A DNA stretch of 33,952 nucleotides from Bryobacterales bacterium. Lineage in GTDB: Bacteria; Acidobacteriota; Terriglobia; Bryobacterales; Bryobacteraceae. Both the position numbers and the translations under genes were made by a program. The DNA is taken from contig PLDO01000477.1 of assembly GCA_003136215.1 (NCBI GenBank), forward strand, positions 1-33,952. Direction: 5' to 3'. Shown piece after piece: positions 15,454-33,569 of this stretch. The stretch's first letter is position 1. Each line of letters opens with the position of its first letter. The notes under the pieces were generated by a model that searched no databases, was not told where the DNA came from, and was given only the letters and a program-made list of their open reading frames with translations.

Positions 15454-15493
15454 GATTCGATCTTACCGCGCGCTAAGCGGTGGGCGTGGAGCC

Positions 15494-15633
15494 AATCAAG
15501 TTGTGTACTTGACGCGGAGACGCGGAGACGCTGAGGAAAACGCGGAGAAAAGCAAAGGGCAAAACAAGTTCGATGGAAGCCGCCGGACTCGTTCCCTACC
15601 TCCGCGACTCCGCGTCAAGTACACGGCTTGATT
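15494..15633. repeat. 140-bp imperfect inverted repeat (MITE- or REP-like) with cgcggagacgcggag core
   Basis: Left arm aatcaagttgtgtacttgacgcggagacgcggag; right arm reverse complement aatcaagccgtgtacttgacgcggagtcgcggag; only 3 mismatches over 34 nt. Confidence 0.8.
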
Positions 15634-17414: not shown

Positions 17415-17975
17415 ATGTCACAAAGCACGCACGAAACGGAAATCAAGCTGGCGGTGAAGGACACGCGTTCCGCCCGCCGCCTGCTGCGCGAGGCCGGCTT
17501 CGTGGTCTCGCGGCCGCGCGTTTTCGAGGAAAATACGGTATTCGACACGCCGCAACAGATCCTGCGGAATTCTTCCAGCCTGCTGCGCATTCGGCAGGCC
17601 GGCAGGGTCACCACCATCACCTATAAGGGCGTTCCCGAACCCGGCAACTACAAGAGCCGGGAAGAACTCGAGCTCAAGATCGACAACGCAGCGGCCATGC
17701 TGGCGATTGTGGAGCGGCTGGGCTTCCGCGGCGTGTTCCGCTATGAAAAGTACCGCACCGAATTCCGCCAGCCGCGGCGCGCCGGTATAGCCATGCTGGA
17801 TGAGACCCCCCTCGGCGTCTACCTGGAATTGGAGGGCACGCCGCACTGGATCGACCGCACCGCCCGCCGGCTCGGGTTCCAGGCGGCCGACTACATCACC
17901 GCCAGTTATGCGCGCGTGTATCTGGATTGGTGTGCCGCCAACGGGCGCACGCCAGGGGATATGACGTTCACTTAG
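17415..17975 (+). CDS. CYTH-domain protein (class IV adenylate cyclase / thiamine triphosphatase-like)
   Basis: HETEIKLAVKD (ExExK), SSLLRIRQAGRVTTITYKG, KSREELELKI, YEKYRTEFR, YLELEGTPHWIDRTARRLGF, ITASYARVYLDW. Confidence 0.87.
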   Translation: MSQSTHETEIKLAVKDTRSARRLLREAGFVVSRPRVFEENTVFDTPQQILRNSSSLLRIRQAGRVTTITYKGVPEPGNYKSREELELKIDNAAAMLAIVERLGFRGVFRYEKYRTEFRQPRRAGIAMLDETPLGVYLELEGTPHWIDRTARRLGFQAADYITASYARVYLDWCAANGRTPGDMTFT

Positions 17976-18009: not shown

Positions 18010-18071
18010 GGCAACCGCTCCCTCATGGTCGCGGCTCTGATCGGAGCCGCGACCGTGAGGGAGCGGTTGCC
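18010..18071. repeat. Long near-perfect hairpin (28-bp arms, 6-nt loop), REP-like
   Basis: ggcaaccgctccctcatggtcgcggctc - tgatcg - gagccgcgaccgtgagggagcggttgcc; single non-Watson-Crick position. Confidence 0.85.
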
Positions 18072-18088
18072 CGATACGTTGGTGAACC

Positions 18089-19456
18089 TTGGTGGATAAT
18101 CCGTACGATCAAGTCGCCTATCGCACCTTCCCGCGGCGGCAGACCCATCCCGACCGCCTGGCCGCGATCGCCCTTTTTTTCGGCATGAAGCCCGCGCCCC
18201 CCACCGCCTGCCGTGTGCTTGAAATCGGCTGCGGCGACGGCGCCAACCTGATTCCGCTGGCGTACTATTTGCCGGAAAGCCGCTTCACGGGTATCGATCT
18301 CGCCGCCGGACCCGTCGCCGCCGCCGGCGCCATGGCCGCGGAACTGGCCGTCCACAACATCGATCTGCGCGTGGCCGATCTGCGCCATCTTTCCGCCCGG
18401 GATGGCGAGTTCGACTATATCTTCGCCCACGGGCTCTACTCCTGGATCCCGGCGGATGTGCGCGATCGCCTGCTGGCCGTCTGCCGCCAGTGCCTGGCGC
18501 CGCAGGGTGTGGCGTTCGTCAGCTACAACGTGTATCCGGGACGGTACCCGCGCCAGATGATTCGCGAAATCCTGCTGTATCACACGCGAACCCTGGTTGA
18601 CCCGGCACAGCGCATCGCCGCGGCGCGCCGCCTGCTGGAGCAACTCGACCACCCGGAGGCCCGGTCCCTCATGGAGCAGGGCGACGATGTCCTGTTTCAC
18701 GACGATCTGGCGCCGGTCAACGACCCCGTATGGTTCCGCGAATTCGCGGCGCACGCGCAGCGCCACGGCCTGCAATATCTGGGCGAAGCCGACTCGCATA
18801 ACACCTTCGAGCAAGTGGCAGGGGAAGCCGTGAACGTGATCGAGCGCGAGCAATATGTGGATTTCCTGAACCTGCGCCGCTTCCGCCAGACGCTGCTGTG
18901 CCGCGCGGAGATCCCACTCGATCGCGTGACGGGTGCGGCCCGCATGGACGAATTCCTGTTTTCCGAAAATAAGCGGGCACGCCGCATCCGCGCGCACCAG
19001 CCAGAGCCCGTCTTCGCCGAAGAGCCGGTGGAAGCCATCGCCCAGGCCTTACACGACACCGCGCCATTGCCCGCCCGGTTCGAAGAGCTCATTCCGTACG
19101 CCGGAAACGCGGAGTTGCTGCGCGAGATCCTCTTTGCGCTGCTCTCCTCCGGCTGCGTCAACCTGCACGTCCACGATTTCCCCTGCCAGGAGACGGTGAC
19201 CGAAAGGCCGTGCGCCAGCCGTCTGGCGCGCTATCAGGCGGCGGGCGGAGGCAACGTGACGAACGCATGCCATATCCCGGTGGAACTCGACGCGGTCGCG
19301 CGCCGTCTGGTGGGCCTGCTGGATGGCACGCGCACGCACCAGCAAATCGCGCGCGAACTGTCGCGTACGGCGGGCATGCCGAGTCCGCGGGATGTCCGGC
19401 GGTACCTGCCCGCCAGTCTGGACTGGCTGGCGCGCATGGCGCTGCTGGAAGGCTGA
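18089..19456 (+). CDS. Methyltransferase with methyltransferase regulatory domain (PF10119-like, PKMT-type; TTG or GTG start)
   Basis: NPYDQVAYRTFPRRQTHPDRLAAIALFFGMKPAP...CRVLEIGCGDGANLIPLAYYLPESRFTGIDLA; DYIFAHGLYSWIP; SYNVYPG; HDDLAPVNDPVWFREFAAHAQRHGLQYLGEAD. Confidence 0.88.
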   Translation: MVDNPYDQVAYRTFPRRQTHPDRLAAIALFFGMKPAPPTACRVLEIGCGDGANLIPLAYYLPESRFTGIDLAAGPVAAAGAMAAELAVHNIDLRVADLRHLSARDGEFDYIFAHGLYSWIPADVRDRLLAVCRQCLAPQGVAFVSYNVYPGRYPRQMIREILLYHTRTLVDPAQRIAAARRLLEQLDHPEARSLMEQGDDVLFHDDLAPVNDPVWFREFAAHAQRHGLQYLGEADSHNTFEQVAGEAVNVIEREQYVDFLNLRRFRQTLLCRAEIPLDRVTGAARMDEFLFSENKRARRIRAHQPEPVFAEEPVEAIAQALHDTAPLPARFEELIPYAGNAELLREILFALLSSGCVNLHVHDFPCQETVTERPCASRLARYQAAGGGNVTNACHIPVELDAVARRLVGLLDGTRTHQQIARELSRTAGMPSPRDVRRYLPASLDWLARMALLEG

Positions 19457-19469
19457 GGGAAGGCCCGAC
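19385..19469 (+). repeat. Direct repeat, copy 1 (3' end of the methyltransferase gene plus 13 nt downstream)
   Basis: 81 of 85 nt identical (counted by eye) to 20372..20456. Confidence 0.9.
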
Positions 19470-19647
19470 ACGGTCAACCTAATGGCGGCGCGGTGAAGGT
19501 GGACCCGCCTGCGACTCCCGGACGAGTTTGGATGCCAAGATCGCGGCTGGCAGGTCGGTCACCTACGCATGAAAGACATATTCATCTGGGGCCGTTGTTG
19601 CCAATCAAGAGGCCCACTGCGTAGAATCTTTGGATGGGTGAACCGAT

Positions 19648-20295
19648 ATGACCGGCAGAAACTCACGCGTAAATCAATGCCAGAACCCGACTGGATGGCT
19701 GGGACGATGGGTTCTGCGGAATATGAATTCGCGCCACTCCAAGGTCACAGATTGGGGCTTATCGCGGGCTTCGATAGGGAAACATGACATCATCCTGGAT
19801 GTAGGCTGCGGCGGAGGCAGAACCGTGAGCAAGTTGGCTGCAATCGCCACTCAAGGCAAGGTCTATGGCATCGATCATTCGACGGAGAGCGTGGCTATGG
19901 CCATGCGAACGAACAAGCAATGGATCGATGTCGCACGCGTTGAGGTTCGGGAGGCGTCCGTCTCCCGGTTGCCATTTTCAGACGGCGCCTTTGATGTCAT
20001 CACGGCGGTCGAAACGCACTTCTGGTGGCCTGCTTTGCCAACGGATCTCCGCGAAGTTTTGAGAGTCCTGAAGCCCGGTGGTAGGCTGATCATCATCGCG
20101 GAAGTCTACAAGGGAGCAGAGGCCTTCACTTCAAAAGCTGCGGAGAGATACTCTGAAAAAACAGGTATGGCGCTCCTCAGCGTCGAGGAGCATCGCGAAC
20201 TGTTCACGGATGCCGGTTACTCAGACGTTCAGCTCATTACAGAACCACGCAAAGGGTGGATTTGCTGCATCGGGAGCAAGGCCCCAGTTTCGTAA
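19648..20295 (+). CDS. Class I SAM-dependent methyltransferase, likely horizontally acquired
   Basis: NPTGWLGRWVLRNMNSRHSKVTDWGLSRASIGKHDIILDVGCGGGRTVSKLAAIATQGKVYGIDHSTESVAMA...LREVLRVLKPGGRLIIIAEVYKG; visibly lower GC than flanks. Confidence 0.87.
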   Translation: MTGRNSRVNQCQNPTGWLGRWVLRNMNSRHSKVTDWGLSRASIGKHDIILDVGCGGGRTVSKLAAIATQGKVYGIDHSTESVAMAMRTNKQWIDVARVEVREASVSRLPFSDGAFDVITAVETHFWWPALPTDLREVLRVLKPGGRLIIIAEVYKGAEAFTSKAAERYSEKTGMALLSVEEHRELFTDAGYSDVQLITEPRKGWICCIGSKAPVS

Positions 20296-20371
20296 AGCTC
20301 GGTCATAACTTAATAACGGCTCTTGAAGTACGGATAGGCACCGATTCGTAACCCGCCCATGCTTGCTCTGC

Positions 20372-20456
20372 CCGCGGGATGTCCGCCGCTACCTGCCCGG
20401 CAGTCTGGACCGGCTGGCGCGCATGGCGCTGCTGGAAGGCTGAGGGAAGGCCCGAC
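20372..20456 (+). pseudogene. Direct repeat, copy 2: isolated 3' remnant of a PKMT-type methyltransferase paralog
   Basis: Encodes PRDVRRYLPGSLDRLARMALLEG* against PRDVRRYLPASLDWLARMALLEG* at the end of 18089..19456; no upstream body of the gene. Confidence 0.85.
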
Positions 20457-20495: not shown

Positions 20496-21602
20496 ATGGC
20501 CAAAGGGAAGCTTCGCGCGTTCTGGCAACGCACCAGTGACGGCCTCAATGCCGAGCAGCTCTGGTCCCAATTCCGGCGGGAAACCCGCAGCAGCCTCAAC
20601 CTCTATTCAGCCGAAACCGGCCGCAACCTGAGTGAGGAGTGGTCTGCGCGAAAAGGCCGCCGGCGGGTTCTTTCCGCGGTGGCGGGCGCGATGTATAACC
20701 GCCTCACGCCGGTACGGCGCCTGTTACTCCTGCTCGCGGTCGTACTGTTGGTGCTCCCCTCGACTGAGAACTTACCCGGCGCCGGCTTGCGAATCTCATT
20801 CAATTCGACGCCCGCGGCCCTTATCCTCCTGGTGCTGCTGGTGCTGGAGTTGGCCGATCGCGTAGGCCTCAAGCGCGACCTGGAGATTGCGCGCGACATC
20901 CAGCGGATGCTCCTCCCCGAGAGGCCCCCGACGCTCCCCGGCCTCGATATCGCCTTCGCCACCAAAGCGGCCAACACCGTCGCCGGCGATTACTATGACG
21001 CGTTCCTGCGCTCCAACACAAACGATTCCCGGCTGCTGCTGATCGTCGCCGACGTCGCCGGCAAAGGCATCCCGGCAGGTCTGCTGATGGCCGCCGTGCA
21101 GACCGGATTCCATACCCTCGCAGTGGACCCCGTGCCCCTGGTTGAGCTGGCCGCCAGACTCAATCGTGCCATGTGTGAGCGCAGCGGCGGCGGAAGGCAC
21201 TTGATCACGGCGTTCATCGCGGAATTGGACACGTCGACGCGCTCGTTCATCTGGGTGAACGCCGGCCACAACCCTCCCATCCTGCTCCGAAGCGGCGGCG
21301 CCCTGGAGTACCTGAAAGAAGGCGGCCTCCCGCTGGGAGCTTTCACCGTGTCCCGGTACGAGAGTGGGCGCACCGAACTGGGTTCCGGAGATGCCCTGTA
21401 TATCTACACGGATGGCGTCATCGAAGCTCTCGACGAATCGGGTGCCGAGTACGGCGAGGAGCGCCTCGCCCGACAGGTGGCCGCGCTTGCGACGGCCGAT
21501 GCGGCGACCAGCCTGAGCCGCATCTTCGAATCCGTCGACCGGTTTGCCGGCGCCACCCCCCAATACGACGACATCACCTGCCTGGTTCTGCGCGTCGCCT
21601 GA
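20496..21602 (+). CDS. PP2C-type SpoIIE/RsbU serine phosphatase, membrane anchored
   Basis: ARDIQRMLLPERPPTLPGLDIAFATKAANTVAGDYYDAF, LLIVADVAGKGIPAGLLMA, GHNPPILL, GDALYIYTDGVIEA, YDDITCLVLRV; two hydrophobic segments near the N-terminus. TTG at 20487 is an alternative start. Confidence 0.9.
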   Translation: MAKGKLRAFWQRTSDGLNAEQLWSQFRRETRSSLNLYSAETGRNLSEEWSARKGRRRVLSAVAGAMYNRLTPVRRLLLLLAVVLLVLPSTENLPGAGLRISFNSTPAALILLVLLVLELADRVGLKRDLEIARDIQRMLLPERPPTLPGLDIAFATKAANTVAGDYYDAFLRSNTNDSRLLLIVADVAGKGIPAGLLMAAVQTGFHTLAVDPVPLVELAARLNRAMCERSGGGRHLITAFIAELDTSTRSFIWVNAGHNPPILLRSGGALEYLKEGGLPLGAFTVSRYESGRTELGSGDALYIYTDGVIEALDESGAEYGEERLARQVAALATADAATSLSRIFESVDRFAGATPQYDDITCLVLRVA

Positions 21603-21617
21603 GGCGGGCATTCGCGC

Positions 21618-22229
21618 CTATCCCCGCCGCACTAAGAACACCGCCACCTCCGCCATCAGATTGGGCAGAAATTCCCCCTTGTGATGGCCCGCCAGGAAGA
21701 AGCGCCGTTCCACCACCAGCGATTCCAACTCCGCCAGCGCCTCGAAATCGTGCACTGTCAGGAAGTGGATATTGGGCGATTCGTACCACTCATACGGAAA
21801 CAACGAAGTCCGCGGCGCGCGCCCGCTGAAGAGCATGGAGAGCCGCACCCGCCAGTGGCCGAAATTGGGAAACGCCACGATCGCCCGCCGCCCCACGCGC
21901 AGCATCTCGCGCAGCACCGTGCGCGGATGGCGCGTCTCCTGCAGCGTCTGGCTGAGGATCACGTAATCGAAGGCCTGATCCGGATAGTCCGCCAGCCCCT
22001 CGTCGATATCGCATTGGAACACCGACACGCCGCGCGCGATCGCCTTCTGCACTTTGGCGCCGCTGATTTCCACGCCGCGCGCGTCCACGCCCTTGTTGGA
22101 TGCCAGCCACTCCAGCAGCTCGCCTTCGCCGCAGCCCAGGTCGAGCACTTTGGTATCGGGCTCCACGATCTCGCCGATAATCGCGTAATCGCTGCGGCCC
22201 AGCAGCTCGCGGACGAATCCCGCTTTCAT
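21618..22229 (-). CDS. metW: Methionine biosynthesis protein MetW
   Basis: MKAGFVRELLGRSDYAIIGEIVEPDTKVLDLGCGEGELLEWL...YVILSQTLQETRHPRTVLREMLRVGRRAIVAFPNFGHWRVRLSMLFSGRAPRT; ATGA overlap with metX. Confidence 0.93.
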   Translation of the reverse strand: MKAGFVRELLGRSDYAIIGEIVEPDTKVLDLGCGEGELLEWLASNKGVDARGVEISGAKVQKAIARGVSVFQCDIDEGLADYPDQAFDYVILSQTLQETRHPRTVLREMLRVGRRAIVAFPNFGHWRVRLSMLFSGRAPRTSLFPYEWYESPNIHFLTVHDFEALAELESLVVERRFFLAGHHKGEFLPNLMAEVAVFLVRRG

Positions 22230-33374: not shown

Positions 33375-33552
33375 GGCAGGCGAAACCGCCTGCCCCACCA
33401 CTGCAAACACGGGTTGTGCACCTTGGTGGCGCAGACGCCTGCCCCACCCACTGCAAAGACACGGGTTGTGCACCTTGGTGGCGCAGGCGCCTGCCCCACC
33501 CACTGCAAAGACACGGGTTGTGCTCCTTGGTGGCGCAGGCGGTTTCGCCTGC
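33375..33552. repeat. Tandem repeat (units of 49-52 bp, third unit truncated) bracketed by inverted GCAGGCGAAACCGCCTGC palindromes
   Basis: gcctgccccac(c)cactgcaaa(ga)cacgggttgtgcaccttggtggcgcag starts at 33388, 33437 and 33489; ends are ggcaggcgaaaccgcctgcc (33375-33394) and gcaggcggtttcgcctgc (33535-33552). Confidence 0.85.
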
Positions 33553-33569
33553 GTGTCGCGATTTGGTAT

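Follow-up and report, generated by a model that had tools for sequence, protein, structure and literature searches.

In homology-facilitated illegitimate recombination (HFIR), known from natural transformation and conjugation, foreign DNA is joined beside a stretch of homology without the help of a mobile element; resident DNA is usually deleted in the products, and one of the two junctions is formed without homology, often at a microhomology of 3–10 bp. Experimentally, HFIR gave insertions of about 1 kb, and in the lacZ gene of E. coli single-crossover products were obtained in which the insert is flanked by duplications of the target-gene end (PMC3240628). HFIR was also proposed for the orphan 3′ regions of Vibrio T6SS arrays (PMC5361080). 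More generally, 10–18% of the variable segments of three well studied species are bounded by direct repeats (PMC2884548).

The locus described here resembles each of these cases in part. As in HFIR, about 1 kb of foreign DNA lies beside a region of homology, with one end presumably joined without homology and no need of a mobile element; however the classical products delete resident DNA, whereas at this locus the end of the resident gene has been retained in duplicate. The single-crossover lacZ products share with our locus an insert placed between direct duplications of a gene end, but these are experimental and measure 109–950 bp, against 85 bp in a natural locus (PMC3240628). In the Vibrio T6SS/Rhs orphan 3′ regions and immunity arrays, the old 3′ end that stays downstream is what remains of a gene displaced by an incoming module (PMC5361080); at our locus there are no toxin or immunity genes and the upstream gene is intact. 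Finally, repeat-flanked variable segments also carry a short variable insert between direct repeats, but those repeats are mostly under 30 bp (PMC2884548) while ours is longer and corresponds to a gene end.

We analysed the 33,952-nt contig PLDO01000477.1 (GCA_003136215.1) of a Bryobacterales bacterium, hereafter the window; it belongs to the 7.1 Mb genome, in 729 contigs, of an uncultured acidobacterium. The upstream gene in question (18089–19456, forward strand like the other parts of the locus below unless indicated) codes for a PKMT-type methyltransferase and is intact, with PKMT_2nd and MethyTransf_Reg domains. From its predicted architecture—methyltransferase core, MethyTransf_Reg and C-terminal winged-helix domains—the product would be a PKMT of the Rickettsia type, and the closest solved structures by sequence are those of protein lysine methyltransferases 1 and 2. 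It is preceded by a CYTH-domain gene (17415–17975), class IV adenylate cyclase-like (Pfam CYTH, 1e-14; TIGR00318 above cutoff). The spacer between the two carries a dispersed REP-like palindrome of 62 nt (18010–18071, no strand assigned) made of two 31-nt arms that are 94% complementary, with about 30 further sites in the genome; a related sequence occupies the same spacer in genome G008. Elsewhere in the window, another family of dispersed repeats, whose arms are inverted, is represented at 15492–15633 and has several further copies in the genome, and a 52-nt unit is repeated three times in tandem at 33407–33562, the third copy being diverged. On the other side of the locus are a SpoIIE-type phosphatase gene (20499–21602; Pfam SpoIIE, 3e-47; the listed ORF starts at TTG 20487) and, on the reverse strand, metW (21618–22226), a conserved neighbour of metX in relatives.

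The 3′ end of the PKMT gene is found twice. Copy 1 (19385–19469) consists of the terminal 72 nt of the gene with its stop codon and of the 13 nt beyond; copy 2 (20372–20456) is an orphan tail without gene body. Repeat search and alignment thus confirm the 85-nt direct repeat reported in the preliminary description, with 81 of 85 positions identical and a spacing of 987. The match is far above chance (E 7e-33 in a search of the own genome, which revealed no third copy). The four differences from copy 1 to copy 2 (G>C, G>C, C>G and T>C) have exactly the coding effects stated there, i.e. the synonymous change of CGG CGG to CGC CGC and two missense changes, Ala to Gly and Trp to Arg. The reading frame of copy 2 is still open, and homology between the copies stops abruptly at both ends, with a sharp 20371/20372 boundary.

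Such a layout could in principle be created by an assembly joining two strains or organisms, and the fragmented state of this genome together with its estimated contamination of 5.5% would favour a chimera. However, the longest exact run common to both copies, about 45 nt, is short for the final assembly k-mers; besides, both flanks are those of the genus, since PKMT and metW-metX match relatives, and the gene lying between the copies is intact and has a near-identical segment on an independent contig of genome G565. We consider a chimera very improbable.

Between the copies, and thus adjoining the PKMT 3′ end on both sides, lies an islet of 902 nt (19470–20371), whose sole reading frame (19648–20295) encodes a class I SAM-dependent methyltransferase, hereafter MT. 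The lower GC of MT had already been remarked, and the GC and codon analysis substantiates it: the islet has 55.5% GC vs 64.1% for the window, MT has 55.4% (63% at third positions) when the PKMT gene reaches 66.5% (81%), and in codon usage MT stands clearly apart from the rest of the 21 window genes, with a mean log relative codon frequency of -1.37 for values of -0.81 to -1.10 in the others. The profile of class I SAM-dependent methyltransferases (Methyltransf_11/25) scores above the Pfam cutoff (5e-22 for Methyltransf_11), from which catalysis is predicted, and among the NCBIfam families listed no cutoff is reached. Judged by sequence, most of its closest solved structures belong to methyltransferases of natural products, sugars, sterols and phospholipid precursors; MT is probably a small-molecule methyltransferase. 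Upstream of it, a promoter-like site TTGCCA-18-TAGAAT (19598–19627) is also present in the related segment of G565, so that MT may be transcribed on its own from this putative promoter.

Neither a transposase nor an integrase was detected in the islet by ORF and domain survey, the repeat search of the window gave no inverted repeats at its ends, and the own genome contains no further copy of it. A transposon or IS insertion in its usual form was rejected on these grounds (no transposase, no terminal inverted repeats) and because of the 85-nt duplication; the earlier opinion that a usual transposon target-site duplication does not reach 85 bp stands. Elements of the integrase type that insert at gene 3′ ends carry an integrase gene, and the attachment-site copies at their borders, which usually lie in a tRNA gene, are nearly identical. 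At our locus there is no integrase, the copies differ at 4 of 85 positions and the target is the PKMT gene; this candidate, in its usual form, was rejected as well.

Where does MT come from? In the eight other members of the genus no homologue rises above the general methyltransferase background, and among 237 genomes of the family the islet is entire in none besides its own. When 396 genomes from the whole phylum were searched, five more showed an MT homologue at E <= 1e-40, at 38–52% identity. A scan of GTDB contigs, whose query-derived patterns bias the sample towards close relatives, yielded 21 MT loci at 55–71% identity, except for a 93% fragment (L114); these nearest loci are from acidobacterial MAGs, mostly of other orders, and from one Gemmatimonadaceae, and the genes around them are mostly unrelated. 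The closest full-length homologues belong to Acidobacteriaceae-type MAGs (70–72% identity) while that of G009, a genome of the same family, is 58% identical. In the tree, MT of the window falls inside a group of genes mostly from other acidobacterial orders with a support of 93/93, and the G009 gene stays outside. A vertical phylogeny of MT among close relatives, which the preliminary description had opposed to a recent insertion, is thus not what we see. Homologues are sporadic across Acidobacteriota, and the conserved neighbours of MT in other genomes amount to pairs among a few related records, none common with the window. Viral relatives were not found, and plasmid or phage carriers gave only distant matches, under 40% identity; a viral, plasmid or phage carrier was rejected for want of a close relative. 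Absence from the genus, deviant composition and non-vertical placement together support the horizontal acquisition of MT, as initially proposed, at a date recent on the scale of the genus.

In the same 237 genomes, DNA matches to MT above 80% exist only as pieces and in other genera. Three genera harbour pieces of 61–435 nt with 87–94% DNA identity: one of 435 nt at 94% in G565 (PMTT01000501.1), a decayed fragment in a different genomic context which corresponds to 19523–19957 of the window; two of 145 and 61 nt at 87–88%, in two places, in G607; and one of 64 nt at 89% in G603. G641 has the ends of a more distant MT copy, cut by contig ends. The fragments have different ends in the different genera, and that of G565 has no flanking repeat. 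The PKMT gene, used as control in the family search, gave no fragment of at least 60 nt above 85% identity outside the genus, which shows that the pattern is specific to MT; the idea that copy 2 stems from gene fragments being scattered generally through the family was rejected by this control. Read most simply, these sequences suggest that the family has repeatedly gained this one gene and let it decay. In G565 (L140, G565:C942, 2309–2900), the MT fragment is joined to an apparent serine/threonine kinase gene piece on the other strand, in a spacer made of gene debris.

These fragments bear on a further explanation, an insertion accompanied by a direct duplication of its target, either through a long staggered break with filled-in 85-nt ends or through an unrecognised element making 85-bp duplications. 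The topology of the locus is exactly the one expected, and spacers in three other genera do contain MT fragments. However their ends vary and the G565 fragment is not bordered by any repeat; the islet is devoid of terminal repeats, transposase and integrase; and 85 nt exceeds the duplications known for transposons. We regard this explanation as improbable.

The surroundings of the locus vary in the genus. The CYTH gene and metW form the left and right edges of an interval which in G001 and G005 is reduced to about 225 bp, the two genes being adjacent with no PKMT, MT or SpoIIE between them. In G002 the interval holds PKMT, then a TonB-type gene, then metW, with neither MT nor a second tail; in G007 unrelated genes come after PKMT. 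The genus members thus lack the islet and differ in other respects too, which makes the interval plastic; the CYTH-metW spacer may be a hot spot for insertions in the genus. Repeat-flanked islets with other cargo, which the preliminary description had envisaged at this site, were not found in G002 and G007. In G008 the match of the PKMT orthologue ends after about 212 codons (L055, G008:C417, 3237–3487) and unrelated sequence, possibly an insertion element, follows up to the contig end. The SpoIIE gene has relatives with 81–85% DNA identity, confined to the gene, in unrelated contexts of three other genera (G454, G028, G649); the proteins are 84–85% identical there, and within its own genus there is just a homologue at 50% amino-acid identity, so that this sporadic gene looks acquired too. 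A broken partial second SpoIIE copy stands beside the full one in G649.

The relatives also inform on the idea, advanced in the preliminary description, that copy 2 is the tail of a once-functional tandem paralogue: PKMT would have been duplicated, its second copy reduced to the last 85 nt, and MT inserted between the two or substituted for the lost body. The open frame of copy 2 agrees with this, and other genera of this family do have neighbouring PKMT-type genes (G017:C418; multiple matches on G525:C573). On the other hand no genus member has tandem copies at the locus, PKMT being present in G002 and G007 and absent between CYTH and metW in G001 and G005; moreover three events (duplication, deletion and insertion) are required. 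At the differing positions the outgroup G002 sides with copy 2 at three sites out of four and with copy 1 at one, although a stump released from selection is expected to hold most of the changes; four sites are weak evidence, but two mixed haplotypes account for this split more readily than a decaying stump does. We find the tandem origin unlikely and not required by the data, and the claim has gained no support.

The second possibility considered initially, in which integration of the islet duplicated part of the gene end, is the better of the two. A geometry of gene tail, islet and gene tail with sharp ends calls for one unusual join, and we give slightly better than an even chance to a recombination scar formed without mobile element, with PKMT as the homologous anchor and one illegitimate join. 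Foreign DNA carrying MT as a lone gene would have been joined behind PKMT through homology of the PKMT sequence, and its other end sealed by an illegitimate junction falling within a PKMT 3′ end, presumably at 20371–20372 (no strand assigned), where the copy homology begins sharply. The last 72 nt of PKMT and the 13 nt beyond would then be left a second time on the far side, copy 1 remaining part of a working gene and copy 2 a functionless relic. The event is most likely of a kind already known, and two routes may lead to it: HFIR, by which a PKMT-MT haplotype would have been joined to a PKMT-SpoIIE haplotype, or the single-crossover integration of a circularised fragment bearing a short PKMT end. 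Among the genomes compared, which are of other species, neither parental layout (PKMT with SpoIIE directly behind it, or PKMT-MT) was encountered. A sliding comparison of PKMT identity with G002 and G007 gave no clear break that would delimit a donor-derived 3′ part.

One might go further and see in MT, in SpoIIE and in the 85-nt PKMT tail the traces of a frequent, transposase-free gene capture between genera of the family, homology-anchored or by end-joining, into a few permissive spacers; to this broad view we attach only a slim probability. The locus otherwise belongs to ordinary genome plasticity. It nevertheless offers a readable case of the probable entry of a single gene into an acidobacterial genome without mobile element, in a CYTH-metW spacer that would lend itself to a direct comparison of parental and derived layouts.
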